From CAVPRW01 sp046727435 [NCBI: bacterium] (lineage in GTDB: Bacteria > Tectomicrobia > Entotheonellia > J063): a stretch of DNA of 6,962 nucleotides. The notes under the pieces are model-generated. The model searched no databases and had not been told where the DNA came from. It was given only the letters and a program-made list of their open reading frames with translations. Positions 1-6,962 of this stretch are shown here, piece after piece; position 1 is the first letter of the stretch; every line of letters begins with the position of its first letter. Location of the stretch: positions 1 through 6,962 of the forward strand of contig JBKPCR010000140.1 in assembly GCA_046727435.1 (NCBI GenBank). Direction: 5' to 3'. The position numbers were made by a program, and so were the translations under genes.

Positions 1-1719
1 TTCGGCCGCAGTGAGCTGAATGTCGGCGGGGTGTCCAGCCTTCAGAACGAGCTGGTCTGCCTCTGGCAACAGGACGACCACTTTTGCCCCCAGAATTTGT
101 GCCACCTGCGTCACGATCGCCCGCAGCACATCACTCAGCCCAGCTGCCCCAGCGATCTGACGGCTCAAAGCATACAGGGCAGCTGTTCTGGCCTCGCGAT
201 GTTTGGCCGCATCGGCCTGATGGCGCACGCGTGCCGCTAGGTTGCTCGTGAGTACTGCCGTGATGAGGAAAACGACAAGCGCCAAAATGTCTTGCGGGTT
301 GGCGACGGTGAAGGTGAAGATCGGCGACACAAAGAAGAAGTCATAGACGAGCAGGCTCAGGATAGAGGCGAGGATCGACGGCCCGAGGCCCCAGGTGACG
401 GCGCTGAACAGCACGGCGATCAAAAAGACCAGGGAGAGGTTCGGAAGCGCCAGAAATGATTCGAGAATCTTCGCCGTCACCCCTGCGCCACACACCGCGG
501 CGGCGCTCAACACATATGTATGGATGGCGGGTCGCTGCAGCACGGGGGATGTCGGCGTCCGTTGGGGGCCCTCATCCGCGTCATTGATGACGTGGACCTC
601 GATGTTGCCGCTCTTGCTGATGAGGTCGTAGGCGATTGAGCCGCGCCACAGCTCGCTCCAGCCCGAACGCAGCGACTTGCCGATGATCACCTCAGTCACA
701 TTACGAGATTGCGCATAGCGGATCAGGTCCTCGGCGACGTTTTGCCCTGGGATCGTGATGGCTTCGCCCCCCAATTGCTCGGCCAGCCGCAGCGTCTGGG
801 CCACTCGGTCGCGGTCGGCGTCAGAGAGGCGGTGATGGCGTGGGGTTTCGACGTAAAGGGCCAGCCACTCGGCGTGGCGGCGGTCGGCCATGCGTCGGGC
901 AGCGCGGACCAGGCGTGGCGAGTGCGGACTGGAGCTGACGCACACCAGAATACGCTCCCCGGCTGGCCACGGACCAGGGATGGCGTGCGCTTGCATATAG
1001 CTCTGCATCTGCTCGTCCACCCGTTCCGCCGTCCGACGGAGGGCCAGCTGCCGCAGTGCCGTCAGGTTGCCCAGGCGGAAAAAGCGCTGAATCGCTCGCT
1101 GCGCTTGTTCGGGCACATAAACCTTGCCCTCCCGCAAGCGTTGCAGCAGCTCATCAGGCGACAGGTCAACCAGCTCGATCTCAGCGGCGCCATCGAGGAT
1201 CCGGTCGGGCATGGTCTCCCGCACGCGCGTGCCGGTGATCTGGGCGACCGTATCGTTCAGACTTTCCAGATGCTGGATATTGACCGTGGTATACACGTCA
1301 ATATCGGCGGCGAGCAATTCCTCGACATCGAGATAGCGCTTGGGGTGGCGACTGCCAGGAATGTTGGTATGCGCGAGTTCATCCACCAGGATCAGTTGAG
1401 GCCGCCGCGCCAGGATGGCATCAAGGTCCATCTCATCGAACGTCCGGTTGCGATATTCGAGCTTGCGTCGAGGGATGATTTCCAAGTCGCGAAGCAGAGC
1501 CTCAGTCTCAAGCCGGCCGTGCGTCTCAACGACGCCAACGACCACATCAATGCCCTCCCGCTTGCGCACCTGGGCGGCTTCGAGCATGGCGTACGTCTTG
1601 CCAACCCCAGGGACGGCCCCGAGAAAAATCTTCAGCCGTCCGCGCCCCTCTTGCTCTGCGGCCGAGAGGAGGGCTTCAGGAGAGGGGCGAAGGTTTGACT
1701 CCGGGGTTCCGTGCGGCAT
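1..1719 (-). CDS. kdpD: KdpD, osmosensitive K+ channel sensor histidine kinase (N-terminal two thirds; 3' end beyond the window)
   Basis: KdpD is the membrane-bound sensor kinase that, with the response regulator KdpE, controls the KdpFABC potassium pump. Translating the minus strand from 1719 gives 573 uninterrupted codons to the window edge. Visible: KdpD N-terminal domain with Walker A GAVPGVGKT (residues 34-42), the VVGVVETHGR segment, Walker B LILVDELAHTN (109-119), PGSRHPKRY, NIQHLES (147-153) and GNLTALRQLALRRTAERVDEQ (217-237). A Usp-like domain follows (about 254-372), then four closely spaced hydrophobic segments of the DUF4118 type (about 399-495), then the start of a GAF-like region (from about 510). 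The HisKA and ATPase domains would lie outside the window. ATG 1719 is preceded by GGGGGAG with 9-nt spacing and gives an N-terminus similar in length to E. coli KdpD. The in-frame ATGs at 1770 and 1767 are alternatives. It is unusual in being separated from kdpC by 4.7 kb. Confidence 0.97.
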   Translation of the reverse strand, partial: MPHGTPESNLRPSPEALLSAAEQEGRGRLKIFLGAVPGVGKTYAMLEAAQVRKREGIDVVVGVVETHGRLETEALLRDLEIIPRRKLEYRNRTFDEMDLDAILARRPQLILVDELAHTNIPGSRHPKRYLDVEELLAADIDVYTTVNIQHLESLNDTVAQITGTRVRETMPDRILDGAAEIELVDLSPDELLQRLREGKVYVPEQAQRAIQRFFRLGNLTALRQLALRRTAERVDEQMQSYMQAHAIPGPWPAGERILVCVSSSPHSPRLVRAARRMADRRHAEWLALYVETPRHHRLSDADRDRVAQTLRLAEQLGGEAITIPGQNVAEDLIRYAQSRNVTEVIIGKSLRSGWSELWRGSIAYDLISKSGNIEVHVINDADEGPQRTPTSPVLQRPAIHTYVLSAAAVCGAGVTAKILESFLALPNLSLVFLIAVLFSAVTWGLGPSILASILSLLVYDFFFVSPIFTFTVANPQDILALVVFLITAVLTSNLAARVRHQADAAKHREARTAALYALSRQIAGAAGLSDVLRAIVTQVAQILGAKVVVLLPEADQLVLKAGHPADIQLTAAE

Positions 1720-1728
1720 CGTGATCTG

Positions 1729-1735
1729 CTCCCCC
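1729..1735 (-). promoter_or_regulatory. Ribosome binding site of kdpD
   Basis: On the minus strand GGGGGAG lies 9 nt before ATG 1719. The in-frame ATG-ATG at 1770/1767 has no comparable purine-rich stretch upstream, which is why 1719 is preferred as the start. Confidence 0.5.
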
Positions 1736-1893
1736 AACGCGAAAGGTGGCTCCTTAGTGGAAACCATCATGCGCGAGTGTCGTCGCCAGCAATCCGCCAC
1801 CTGTCCTGATGCCTCTGTCAGCGGGGTGTGGCCGCAGGCCACTCGGTGCTGGTGCTTCGATGATCTTCGCTGGGGATGAACGCTTTATAGCTG

Positions 1894-1931: not shown

Positions 1932-1939
1932 CGTGACTC
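1932..1939. repeat. Left target-site duplication of the MITE
   Basis: CGTGACTC abuts the first base of the element and is identical to 2009-2016. The match stops at exactly 8 bp on both sides. Confidence 0.75.
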
Positions 1940-2008
1940 GGTAATGTCCTAATTTGAGCTCCCGCAGCTCAGCCTGAGGACTCCTATACGGCAAATTAGG
2001 ATACTACC
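1940..2008. mobile_element. 69-bp miniature inverted-repeat transposable element (MITE)
   Basis: The element begins GGTAATGTCCTAATTTG (1940-1956) and ends CAAATTAGGATACTACC (1992-2008). The second is the reverse complement of the first at 15 of 17 positions, with the inner 10 bp perfect. Immediately outside both ends is the perfect 8-bp direct repeat CGTGACTC, the expected target duplication. The interior is only 35 bp and has no coding capacity. It adds further palindromes: GAGCT-cccgc-AGCTC (1956-1970) and CTCAG-c-CTGAG (1968-1978). It must have been moved by a transposase encoded elsewhere. The 8-bp duplication is compatible with several IS families, and I cannot name the parent. It lies just upstream of the putative kdpD promoter. 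Confidence 0.8.
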
Positions 2009-2016
2009 CGTGACTC
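2009..2016. repeat. Right target-site duplication of the MITE
   Basis: CGTGACTC directly follows the last base of the element and is identical to 1932-1939. Removing the element and one copy would restore an uninterrupted target site. Confidence 0.75.
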
Positions 2017-2724: not shown

Positions 2725-4446
2725 ATGAACCAACCAGCCCGGCTCTTTACGGTGCCAGAGCCTGTGGATCGACGCTTCCAGTGGGGCGATGTTGTGGTCC
2801 TCCTGGGGGTGGTGGTGCTCATTTATGCCGGCGTCTCACTGGCCATGTACAGCCCGCTTGCGCTTCGAGCTCCCGACATCTCCATAGCTCCGGAGGTGCT
2901 ACCCTATTACGCTGTCCTTTCGGTTGGCCGGATGGCAGCGGCATACCTCCTCTCGCTCCTCGTCGCCCTGCTCTATGGCCGGGCCGCCGCTGAGCATCAC
3001 CAGGCAGAGCAGGTGTTGATGCCGCTTCTCGACGTGCTTCAGAGCATACCCATATTGTCCTTCCTGCCAGTGGTGCTTCTGAGCTTTAGCGCTGTGCTCC
3101 CGCCGCGCCTCGCAGCTGAGCTCGCGGCCATTGTGCTCATTTTTACCAGCCAGGCCTGGAACCTCATTTTTGCTTGGTATCAGTCCCTCAAGACCATTCC
3201 CTCTGAGCTGCGGGAGGCCTCCGCCATCTTTCGTTTCAACGGCTGGTGGCGCTTTCGGACGCTGGAGTTGCCATTTGCCGCCATCAGCCTGATCTGGAAT
3301 AGCATGATGAGCTGGGCGGGAGGGTGGTTTTTTTTAATGGCGGCAGAGATTTTCACCGTGGGTGAACGCGATTTCCGCCTGCCGGGGCTCGGCGCCTATT
3401 TGCAGGAGGCCGCTAACCGCGGGGATATTGCGGCGATCGCCTGGGGTCTCGGCACATTGGTGTCGGTGATCGTCATCCTTGACCAGCTGGTTTGGCGACC
3501 GCTGCTGGCGTGGTCGAGTCGCTTCAAGCTCGAGATGGTCGCTGGAGCCGAGGCCCCGTCCTCCTGGTTTTACAGTGTGCTCGGCCACTCGCGGCTGATC
3601 CGCGCCTCTCAACACGTGGTGCGCCGCGGCCTGACCCATCTCGACGTCGCCCTGCTGAAGTGGTTTCCCCCGCCGGGAACGCGAGCGAAGCCGGGCAAGC
3701 GGCCGCCCTGGAGGGCGTATGCCATCGCACCGCTCGGGGGGGCGGTGTTACTCTATGGCCTCTATAGAGCTGGGTCGATGCTGCTCCTCGTGTCCGCTGC
3801 CCAATGGCGAGATGTCGCTGTAGGGGTCGGGGCAACGCTGCTCCGGGTGGTTGCAGCGCTGGTTATAGCGCTCGCCTGGACGCTGCCCTTGGGGGTTGCC
3901 ATTGGGACCCGACCCCACCTCGCCGCCCGGGTGCAGCCGCTGGCACAAATTGCTGCCTCCATCCCTGCCACCGCCCTCTTTCCGGTGGTCGTGCTCATGA
4001 TCGCTGGGCTGCCAGCCGGGATGAACCTGGCCGCTGTGCTCCTCATGCTCATGGGCACACAGTGGTATCTCCTGTTTAACGTGATTGCCGGGGCGAGCGC
4101 CATCCCTCAGGACTTGCGATATACCGCAGACCTACTCCAACTCAGCCGCTGGAAACGCTGGCGTATCCTGATTCTGCCGGCCCTTTTCCCGTATCTGATT
4201 ACCGGGGCTGTGACTGCTAGCGGTGGCGCCTGGAACGCCAGCATCGTCGCTGAATATTCCGATTTTGCTGGAAACCCCCGGTACGTCACCGGCGTAGGCT
4301 CTCTCATCGCTCAAGCTACCTCAGCCGGTATATATCCGTTACTATTGGCAGCCACCCTGGCGATGATCGGCACTGTGGTCACCATCAACCGCTTGGTGTG
4401 GCGTCGCCTCTATCGCGTCGCCGAGGCACGTTATCGCCTGGAGTAA
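2725..4446 (+). CDS. ABC transporter permease with two fused NitT/TauT-type (BPD_transp_1) domains
   Basis: This 573-residue inner-membrane protein looks like two permease subunits joined head to tail. Each half has about five to six hydrophobic segments (roughly 22-256 and 331-556) and a cytoplasmic EAA-type coupling loop: REASAIFRFNGWWRF...LELP at about 163-183 and DLLQLSRWKRWR...LILP at about 469-485. These loops would dock on the ATPase encoded next. A basic, proline-rich linker (about 260-330) joins the halves. The family resembles the permeases of nitrate, sulfonate or taurine importers, but no binding protein is encoded nearby, so the substrate is unknown. The start is firm: an in-frame TGA at 2713-2715 precedes it and ATG 2725 is the first start after that, although its ribosome site is weak. 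It is followed after 3 nt by the ATPase gene. Confidence 0.9.
   Translation: MNQPARLFTVPEPVDRRFQWGDVVVLLGVVVLIYAGVSLAMYSPLALRAPDISIAPEVLPYYAVLSVGRMAAAYLLSLLVALLYGRAAAEHHQAEQVLMPLLDVLQSIPILSFLPVVLLSFSAVLPPRLAAELAAIVLIFTSQAWNLIFAWYQSLKTIPSELREASAIFRFNGWWRFRTLELPFAAISLIWNSMMSWAGGWFFLMAAEIFTVGERDFRLPGLGAYLQEAANRGDIAAIAWGLGTLVSVIVILDQLVWRPLLAWSSRFKLEMVAGAEAPSSWFYSVLGHSRLIRASQHVVRRGLTHLDVALLKWFPPPGTRAKPGKRPPWRAYAIAPLGGAVLLYGLYRAGSMLLLVSAAQWRDVAVGVGATLLRVVAALVIALAWTLPLGVAIGTRPHLAARVQPLAQIAASIPATALFPVVVLMIAGLPAGMNLAAVLLMLMGTQWYLLFNVIAGASAIPQDLRYTADLLQLSRWKRWRILILPALFPYLITGAVTASGGAWNASIVAEYSDFAGNPRYVTGVGSLIAQATSAGIYPLLLAATLAMIGTVVTINRLVWRRLYRVAEARYRLE
4440..4443 (+). promoter_or_regulatory. Ribosome binding site of the ABC ATPase gene, inside the permease 3' end
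   Basis: GGAG overlaps the last codons of the permease and lies 6 nt before ATG 4450. The permease TAA (4444-4446) and the ATPase ATG are in the same frame, separated by a single codon. This favours termination-reinitiation and stoichiometric synthesis. Confidence 0.6.
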
Positions 4447-4449
4447 ACC

Positions 4450-5736
4450 ATGACGCTCGCACCCACTTTACTTACCCTCGAACATATCAACCAAGTGTAT
4501 GGTACGAACCGACATCGCGTAGTCGCCCTTGAAGACGTCAACTTCAGCATGCATGAGGGGGAGTTCGTCGCCCTGTTAGGGCCTTCGGGTTGTGGGAAAA
4601 GCACCCTGTTGCGTATCATCACCGGCCTGCAGCGCCCGACCGAAGGCCGCGTGTCGTATCGCGGCAAGCCCGTGTCCGGCATTAACCCGCACACCACCAT
4701 TGTGTTTCAGAGCTTTGCCCTCTTCCCCTGGTTGACCGTCCAACAAAACGTCGAAGTGGCGCTCTTGGCCCATGGGCTGCCCCCCGATGTGTCTGCCGAG
4801 CGCTCCGAGGCGTTCGTCGACAAGGTTGGGCTCGATGGGTTTGAGACTGCCTTTCCCCGCGAACTCTCCGGTGGGATGCGCCAGAAGGTGGGTTTTGCCC
4901 GCGCGCTCGCGGTGGAACCGGAGCTGCTCTGCCTCGACGAACCCTTTTCGGCCCTCGATGTGCTGAGTGCCGACGCCCTACGCGGGGAGTTGCTCGAACT
5001 CTGGAGCAGCGGAACCATGCCGACGAAGGCCATCCTGATAGTCACCCACAACATTGAGGAAGCGGTCTGGTTAGCAGACCGAATTGTGGTCATGGAGAAG
5101 GAACCAGGGCGCGTCGTGACGGAGCTAGAGGTGAGACTCCCCCACCCACGCCGGCGCAAAAGCCTGCCATTCCTGCAAGTAGTTGACCAGGTCTATGCCA
5201 TCTTAGCTGGCCAGACGCAAGCGGAGCATATCGAGATGGGGACGGCTCCTGGTGAGGCAGGCCGCACCCGGGCGCTTCCGCATACCACGATCAACGAGCT
5301 GGCTGGCTTACTTGAACACCTGCACGAGGCACCGCAGCAGCGCGCCGACATCTATCAGCTCGCTAAGGACCTTAAGGTCGAGTTGAACGCCCTGTTGCCC
5401 TTGACGGAGGCTGCAGAGTTGCTGGGCTTTGCCACGATCGCCCAGGGTGATATCACACTCACGCCCCTGGGGGAAACATTTGCCGAAGCCAGCATTCAGG
5501 CGCGCAAGGAAATCTTCGCCACACGGATTCGTCGCTTGCCCCTCTTCAAGTGGCTCGTCGCAATGCTGCAAGCCGCTGACACTCATCAACTCGAGAGAGA
5601 CGTCCTTACCACGGCTCTCGAGCTCGACTTCCCACCGGATGAGGCTACGCGCCAGGTCGATGTAGTCATCAACTGGGGCCGCTATGCCGAGCTCCTGGCC
5701 TACAACGACCGCACGGCCAGCATTGATCTCGCCTAG
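4450..5736 (+). CDS. ABC transporter ATP-binding protein with C-terminal AAA-associated domain
   Basis: This cytoplasmic ATPase would energise the fused permease encoded upstream. The nucleotide-binding domain fills about residues 8-230: Walker A GPSGCGKST (44-52), Q-loop in VFQSFALFPWLTV (Q87), signature LSGGMRQKV (139-147), Walker B LLCLDEPFSALD (159-170) and switch histidine H200 in IVTHNIEEA. All catalytic motifs are intact. The protein is much longer than a stand-alone SsuB/TauB-type ATPase (about 250-270 residues). The extra 190 residues, from about 283, match the AAA_assoc_C type in character: INELAGLLE at the start, LLGFATIAQGDITLTPLG in the middle, and VINWGRYAELLAY near the end. This domain is typical of ATPases paired with double permeases; its role is not established to my knowledge. 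Databases often name such proteins nitrate/sulfonate/bicarbonate ATPases, which is not supported here. The stop codon sits directly at the edge of a decayed gene on the other strand. Confidence 0.93.
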   Translation: MTLAPTLLTLEHINQVYGTNRHRVVALEDVNFSMHEGEFVALLGPSGCGKSTLLRIITGLQRPTEGRVSYRGKPVSGINPHTTIVFQSFALFPWLTVQQNVEVALLAHGLPPDVSAERSEAFVDKVGLDGFETAFPRELSGGMRQKVGFARALAVEPELLCLDEPFSALDVLSADALRGELLELWSSGTMPTKAILIVTHNIEEAVWLADRIVVMEKEPGRVVTELEVRLPHPRRRKSLPFLQVVDQVYAILAGQTQAEHIEMGTAPGEAGRTRALPHTTINELAGLLEHLHEAPQQRADIYQLAKDLKVELNALLPLTEAAELLGFATIAQGDITLTPLGETFAEASIQARKEIFATRIRRLPLFKWLVAMLQAADTHQLERDVLTTALELDFPPDEATRQVDVVINWGRYAELLAYNDRTASIDLA

Positions 5737-6120
5737 GCAAGCTTGAAACAGGAGGAACACGGAGGCGGCCGACCAGGACTGCGGAGCGCACGCAACCGGG
5801 TACAGGGAGGGTCCCTTGCCTGGAGCCTGAGGGAAGCCACAGAACAGCTCCGGCATGCGGTGCAAGTCGAAGTACAGGCCAGCTTCGAACATCCCCGTCC
5901 AGATCTGCAGCGCCAGATCCCCCAGGCCATCGCGGGCGAGCCCCTGGGCGATCAGACTATTGCCGTGGGGCCAGACGGAGCCGTTGTGGTAGGCCATCGG
6001 ATTGTAGCGCGCTGCGGTCTCGTCGCGACCGTGTGGACGCCCCAGCCAGTGAACGACTCCGGGCTAAGGAGCATACGGGCGACAGAAACTTCTTCAGCGC
6101 GATATGCAACGTGCCGAGCA
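5737..6120 (-). pseudogene. Remnant of an amylo-alpha-1,6-glucosidase (glycogen-debranching type) gene
   Basis: The minus strand from about 6010 down to 5737 encodes a typical C-terminal part of the bacterial amylo-alpha-1,6-glucosidase family: RYNPMAYHNGSVWPH, then YFDLHRMPELFCGF, then GPSLYPVACAPQSWSAASVF and LLFQACL. Just upstream the homology continues in another frame (LLSPESFTGWGVHTVA, about 6085-6025), so there is a frameshift near 6020-6030. Intact members have about 700 residues; only some 120 remain. Family members usually read WPHDN, while here it is WPHGN, which fits decay. The similarity stops where the ABC ATPase stop codon lies on the other strand, and the nominal frame then runs antisense through that gene to 5308 without meaning. 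Upstream traces (LLGTLHIA at about 6110) are in a third frame. The family assignment comes from remembered motifs, not an alignment. Confidence 0.8.
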
Positions 6121-6452: not shown

Positions 6453-6962
6453 TCACCGCACGGCATCGAGCGCCAGATTGAGGGCCAGCACGTTGACGCG
6501 CGGCTCCCCCAAGAAGCCGAGCTGCCGACCCTCAGTGGATTGACGCACCAGCGTTTGCACTTGCGCCTCCGACATACCCCGAGCCTGAGCCACACGGGGC
6601 ACCTGAAACGCGGCCGCCGCGGGCGTGAGATGCGGATCCAGGCCGCTCCCCGACGTCGTGACCAGGTCAACCGGGATGGGCGCGTTGGGGTTCTCCGTTC
6701 GCAGATCTGTCACTGCTGCCGTCATGCGATCGACCAGCGCTTGGCTGGTCGGCCCTAAATTTGAGCCCCCCGATGCCGTCGCATCGTAGCCATCCTTACC
6801 CGCTGCGGAGGGTCGCGGGTGGAAATATTGGGGCCCAGCGAAATTCTGACCGATCAATGCTGAACCGATGACCTGGTCGTTGCGAACCACCAGGCTGCCG
6901 TTGGCCTGGTAGGGAAAGAGCAGCTGGGCCAGGCCGGTGACGGCCAGGGGGTAGATAAGCCC
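6453..6962 (-). CDS. kdpC: KdpC, potassium-transporting ATPase subunit C (5' end beyond the window)
   Basis: KdpC is the single-span subunit that stabilises and assists the KdpA/KdpB potassium pump. The minus-strand frame is open from the window edge to TGA at 6455-6453, giving 169 residues. About 20 N-terminal residues are missing compared with E. coli KdpC (190). Visible: the end of the membrane segment ([17 protein letters not shown]), then [72 protein letters not shown], and the usual C-terminus [11 protein letters not shown]. All conserved blocks are present in order, so the gene looks functional. kdpA and kdpB would lie beyond the right edge. kdpD does not follow it here. Confidence 0.97.

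Follow-up and report, generated by a model that had tools for sequence, protein, structure and literature searches.

The window analyzed here, a stretch of DNA of 6,962 nucleotides taken at its full length, carries at its left end a minus-strand kdpD gene for a potassium sensor kinase (1..1842; PF02702, E 4e-100, with Usp and DUF4118 domains), whose 3' end lies outside the window. Its divergent neighbor on the plus strand encodes a two-domain ABC permease (2725..4446) and is followed on the same strand by a gene for an ABC ATPase (4450-5736), with kdpC at 6453-6962. Upstream of kdpD, 97 bp from a candidate start at GTG 1842 or 220 bp from one at ATG 1719, lies a 69-bp element (1940-2008). It is bounded by 17-bp terminal inverted repeats that are complementary at 15 of 17 positions and stand 35 nt apart: GGTAATGTCCTAATTTG on the left (1940..1956, plus strand) and CAAATTAGGATACTACC on the right (1992..2008, minus strand), the latter reading GGTAGTATCCTAATTTG on the minus strand. 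Both arms directly adjoin an 8-bp target site duplication, CGTGACTC, whose left (1932..1939) and right (2009..2016) copies agree at 8/8 bp. The core (1957..1991, 35 bp), for which our searches found no relatives, contributes to a 6-bp stem (TGAGCT/AGCTCA) that starts inside the left repeat. The element is thus short, has terminal inverted repeats and a perfect target duplication, and contains neither a transposase nor any other gene, as is characteristic of miniature inverted-repeat transposable elements (MITEs).

The preliminary description of this DNA had reported exactly this geometry of 69-bp element, 17-bp repeats and gapless duplication and had called it hard to get by chance; both statements withstood scrutiny. 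With up to 3 mismatches allowed, the two arms were the sole matches to the end motif GGTARTRTCCTAATTTG in the window, where shuffled sequence predicts 0.01. Across 1000 composition shuffles of the window, in which the arms were allowed to lie up to 3 kb apart, 366,614 8-mer pairs occurred in the same geometry, and the best arms among them reached 14/17. An analytic estimate for arms of at least 15/17 (1.5e-7 x 367 pairs) gives an expectation of ~6e-5 per window. The view that inverted and direct repeats coincide here by accident could draw on the fact that the 69-mer is known from one copy only. Against it stand this expectation, the failure of all 1000 shuffles to produce an arrangement of such quality, and the match of 16/17 bases between each window end and the commonest end from unrelated genomes, in a comparison whose search pattern fixed all 17 bases except positions 5 and 7; we therefore regard coincidence as vanishingly improbable.

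We then used the end repeat to delineate the family to which the element's ends might belong. A scan with the end motif retrieved at least 118 stretches in genome contigs and 54 in viral contigs. The raw genome count was rejected as evidence, as we estimate that chance alone would yield roughly that number in the 257 billion bases covered; given this, we relied instead on paired ends with duplications and on a reversed-pattern control. The 231 loci fetched by the end repeat contain 97 unique inverted pairs when each arm may carry up to 4 mismatches, and a perfect 8-bp duplication flanks 43 of these pairs, compared with 1 of 485 offset controls. Eight base pairs was also the modal duplication length across the 97 pairs, with 9 bp in three and 7 bp in one, and duplications of 5, 6, 10, 11 or 12 bp were found in none of them. 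A perfect 8-bp duplication is thus lacking in 54 pairs; apart from the 9-bp and 7-bp cases, the duplication in these has decayed or is absent, and some are chance pairings. In 396 genomes drawn from one phylum and searched with the end sequence alone, the exact end occurred at 26 sites in 15 genomes, and its reversed control at none; excluding G005, the genome on which the draw was centered and which had itself been reached via the motif, 25 sites in 14 of 395 genomes remain. Compact arrangements of two ends separated by a gap of at most 30 bp were absent from IMG/VR and present in one genome among 387 of one phylum.

Aligned across 229 ends, the commonest version reads GGTAGTGTCCTAATTTG, followed by a weakly conserved AAWT, with no conservation further inward. 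Each window end departs from it by a single change, an A at position 5 on the left and an A at position 7 on the right. The family ends begin GGTAGTG, and together with the duplication length they agree with the IS1 pattern of 8-9 bp duplications and ends starting GGT..TG. As the family occurs under the names of several phyla as well as in viral contigs, the window ends, judged by sequence, belong to a large cross-phylum family. We found no mention of the end sequence or of the name 'ISMhu11' in the openly searchable literature, nor a published description of this IS1-type group in the titles and abstract beginnings listed. The defined 17-bp end offers a simple means to annotate repeats of this family.

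The preliminary description had proposed looking for IS elements with the same ends, and this search was positive. Perfect duplications flanked 62 unique elements of 34 to 6033 bp, three of them nested at the single locus L081; of these 62, 12 encode a near-complete transposase, seven a fragment and 43 none. Those with a near-complete transposase span 1966-6033 bp, exceeding the transposase by ~1 kb or more, and share their ends with the window element. All five transposases tested passed the cut-off of the Pfam profile DDE_Tnp_IS1 (PF03400), and the NCBIfam IS1 model NF033558 was the best match in all four compared with it, reaching its cut-off in one. Among the plasmid homologs, 20 of 21 of which were listed, five are annotated as 'IS1 family transposase' and one as 'IS1 transposase'. 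Canonical IS1 is ~0.77 kb long and uses two frames, although IS1 members with a single ORF exist. In the nine transposases that we aligned, the protein is encoded by a single ORF of ~275-326 aa (stop to stop), with D97, D167 and E231 (numbering of L102) invariant; none has the overlapping insA/insB frames with a -1 frameshift of canonical IS1. The relatives thus fall within the IS1 family by their transposase, yet differ from canonical IS1 in their length and in their one transposase ORF, and the window element differs from them in having no transposase at all.

Several of the duplication-flanked elements also carry other genes. HTH and IrrE-like protease genes lie together in L107 and L117, a Fic gene in L058 and a DNA methylase gene in L119. 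L229 encodes a protein that resembles methyltransferases but stays below cut-offs, and L237 a protein of 140 aa whose weak similarity to bleomycin-binding proteins falls far short of them. As no transposase was detected in the L058, L119 and L237 elements, a pair of these ends may move with just one gene between them. There are also open frames without a Pfam match (L102:6568-7620, L086:2525-3481, L169:4695-5798, L170:3115-3909 and 3922-4809, L090:5155-5958), whose products, on visual inspection, resemble membrane proteins that bear an outer domain; they occur in several elements with and without a transposase. In their composition, these longer relatives, whether L058, L119 and L237 (ends and a gene, with no detectable transposase) or L107, L117 and L229 (a transposase with other genes), resemble the mobile insertion cassettes and transporter IS presented in PMC3129680; unlike either, the window element has no passenger gene. 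This IS1-type group, often carrying other genes, is broader than the insertion that led to it.

At the short end of the size range, the family includes MITEs with lengths of ~91-170 bp, for which a single genome can contain up to ~40 matches, full or partial, among the matches listed. One ~91-bp MITE (L263, L288-L302 and L304) accounts for 16 of the 17 stretches fetched from G807, a genome labeled Verrucomicrobia, and perfect duplications are present in nine of the 17. The L304 copy has been shortened to 73 bp by an internal deletion. Across five genomes of the same family, which include the relatives G816-G818, this MITE yielded 41, 40, 17, 12 and 0 hits in a search that scored at most 40 candidates in each genome, counts that include partial matches and a few to flanks only. 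Another genome, G810, holds nine copies of a ~168-bp element, three of them with perfect duplications. The left end of the 91-bp copy at L263 and L296 is letter-identical to that of the window element. At L263, the MITE is embedded as AAGGCGCG-[MITE]-AAGGTGCG, a duplication matching at 7/8 positions, and the corresponding sites in two relatives lack the element and hold a single AGGGTGCG (G816) and a single AAGGTGCG (G817). On the right, the flank can be followed for 910 bp in G817 but for only 19 bp in G816; the left neighborhood is common to both relatives but is broken by other insertions or deletions, with ~120 bp just upstream that both relatives hold and G807 does not, and additional extra DNA on the left in G817. 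At the L028 copy, the relatives match only from at least 185 bp away. The L263 locus is a direct record of the insertion of a same-ended MITE, and the short family members are true MITEs.

Taken with these relatives, the 69-bp window element is very probably a non-autonomous, MITE-like derivative of the single-ORF IS1-family group with ends GGTAGTGTCCTAATTTG(AAWT). The element was presumably mobilized in trans: an IS1-type DDE transposase supplied from elsewhere would recognize both ends, GGTAATGTCC and GGTAGTATCC, and join them to staggered cuts in the intergenic region between kdpD and the ABC-transporter genes, and repair of the gaps would yield the 8-bp CGTGACTC duplication. The core, in an element with no gene, would probably play a passive part.

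Comparable elements have been described elsewhere. The IS1-family copies that bound Tn6645, which are 81% identical to ISAba3, have ends beginning GGTGGTGTTTC, and the 8.5-kb insert is bordered by 8-bp duplications, according to PMC6382973; by this account, both ends and duplication are similar to those of the window element. The same paper describes MITEAba12 (111-114 bp, with 9-bp duplications), which is attributed to ISAba12. The window element shares with MITEAba12 its shortness, the lack of genes, ends in common with an IS, a target duplication and possible outward promoters, but differs in its 69-bp length, 8-bp duplication and IS1-type ends and in being known from one copy. Two MITEs of Sulfolobus, SM3A at 164 bp and SMN1 at 320 bp, depend on the transposase of resident ISC1058 and ISC1733, as stated in PMC3718332. 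They resemble the window element as small non-autonomous derivatives; unlike it, they are archaeal, longer and mobilized by other IS elements. The insertion itself is ordinary, a further example of known mobile DNA in the form of an IS1-family MITE or MITE-like remnant.

We also surveyed the genomes nearest to the window for further copies and for a possible helper. In a phylum that includes an 'Acidobacteria' MAG, the window's ABC permease had matches in 56 of 149 genomes, reaching at best 60% identity in two of them (G142 and G151). Their class is the nearest found: 24 of its 41 genomes gave matches, and the main DNA matches are 66-72% identical. The host is therefore probably a relative of that class that has yet to be sampled; other phyla were probed through 19 genomes, seven of which matched. 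A second copy of the 69-mer was not found in plasmids or phages, nor did an exact 24-mer of the core recover another copy from IMG/VR, and the loci fetched first had nothing in common with the 69-mer beyond its terminal repeats and a 13-base core match attributable to chance. The window end, with up to 2 mismatches, was present in two of the 41 nearest-class genomes, which does not exceed the reversed control (four genomes). IS1-type transposases were encoded in seven of these 41 (E <= 1e-3), three near full length and two marginal. Among the nearest-class loci examined, the one duplication-flanked element (L326:1346-2820) is 1475 bp long and combines the variant end GGTAGTGGGTCAGTTT and the duplication CGAGGCCC with an IS1-type transposase in two pieces. 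Since a helper bearing the window's ends was not demonstrated in the nearest class, we infer the helper rather than observe it.

The family further includes seven elements of 33-40 bp that consist of almost nothing but the paired ends. The 8-bp duplication is perfect in four of them, which measure 34 bp (L318:2001-2034, the same as L257:1501-1534), 36 bp (L037:3115-3150), 39 bp (L104:1409-1447) and 40 bp (L098:3997-4036); in the other three the duplication matches at 7/8 (33 bp, L194:1501-1533), 6/8 (33 bp, L001:97-129) or 5/8 positions (36 bp, L223:3001-3036). They represent either scars left by deletion or mobile units of extremely small size. As DNA of 33-40 bp should be hard to synapse, the former is plausible, and it raises the same question for the window element, whose 69 bp fall between these copies and the proven MITEs. 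A longer IS1-family element could have inserted upstream of kdpD and lost most of its interior in place, leaving its ends, a residue and the duplication behind, for which the 'nearly precise excision' of Tn10 provides a parallel. In this direction point the near-ends-only copies, four of the seven being perfectly duplicated, the internal deletion in the 73-bp L304 copy and the want of known relatives of the window core. On the other side, no longer sibling with the window core was found in the fetched loci or IMG/VR, and members of 91-168 bp clearly multiply as such, so that 69 bp falls little short of a size of proven mobility. We consider an origin as such a scar the less probable course, albeit one of some weight, and moderately favor arrival as a short MITE.

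It appears improbable to us that the IS1-type group mobilizes near-ends-only elements of 34-73 bp as such, below the normal length for pairing of duplex ends, as the ends would then have to meet in an unusual way, for example with an extruded cruciform or a single-stranded hairpin as the synapsing form. If it did, few known transposable elements would be as small as the 69-bp window element and the 34-40-bp copies. The 17-bp end also offers a test of the minimum length of a transposable element.

The preliminary description had further taken nested palindromes in the 35-bp core to suggest a strong hairpin in the transcript. This part did not hold: the core alone folds at -4.4 kcal/mol with a z-score of +1.39, worse than most of its shuffles. 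The entire 69-bp element does form a stable fold (-25.0, z -4.43 on the plus strand; -25.9, z -3.32 on the minus strand), which comes from the terminal repeats. Of its account of the locus as a MITE, the insertion with an 8-bp duplication and the same-ended IS relatives remain, and the core hairpin drops out. The stability of the whole-element fold on the plus strand and the location upstream of kdpD, together with a promoter-like minus-strand match across the right junction, might also suit a functional hairpin or regulatory RNA in the kdpD leader in place of a transposon. The fold, however, is accounted for by the terminal repeats around a core that folds worse than shuffled sequence; an Rfam search returned no match, a scan found no terminator-like site, and a leader would not be expected to come with a perfect flanking duplication or with transposase-associated ends shared across phyla. 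The family evidence largely contradicts a leader RNA, which we judge highly unlikely, and the IS1-family MITE-like derivative remains the preferred reading.

A bearing of the insertion on kdpD can be argued from position. The preliminary description had placed a likely kdpD promoter ~40 bp from the insertion, and an extended -10-like sequence, TGGTATACT, with TATACT at 1899-1894, does lie at about that distance beyond it, but it fails the promoter scan. What the scan flagged instead was the match across the right junction, TGGACA-16-TAGTAT on the minus strand (2028-2001, 9/12), whose -10-like half lies inside the right repeat; promoter-like matches in the scanned stretch numbered three, against 0.5 expected. 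As a promoter this is a weak candidate, and a hybrid promoter directed towards kdpD is possible; any effect on kdpD would be small.

The order of the surrounding genes is itself unusual. kdpC and kdpD are usually adjacent, and here a gap of ~4.6 kb separates them, occupied by the ABC permease and ATPase genes on the other strand and by a minus-strand ORF (5308-5997). The latter has no Pfam match, and from a motif we take it to resemble part of a glycogen-debranching enzyme.
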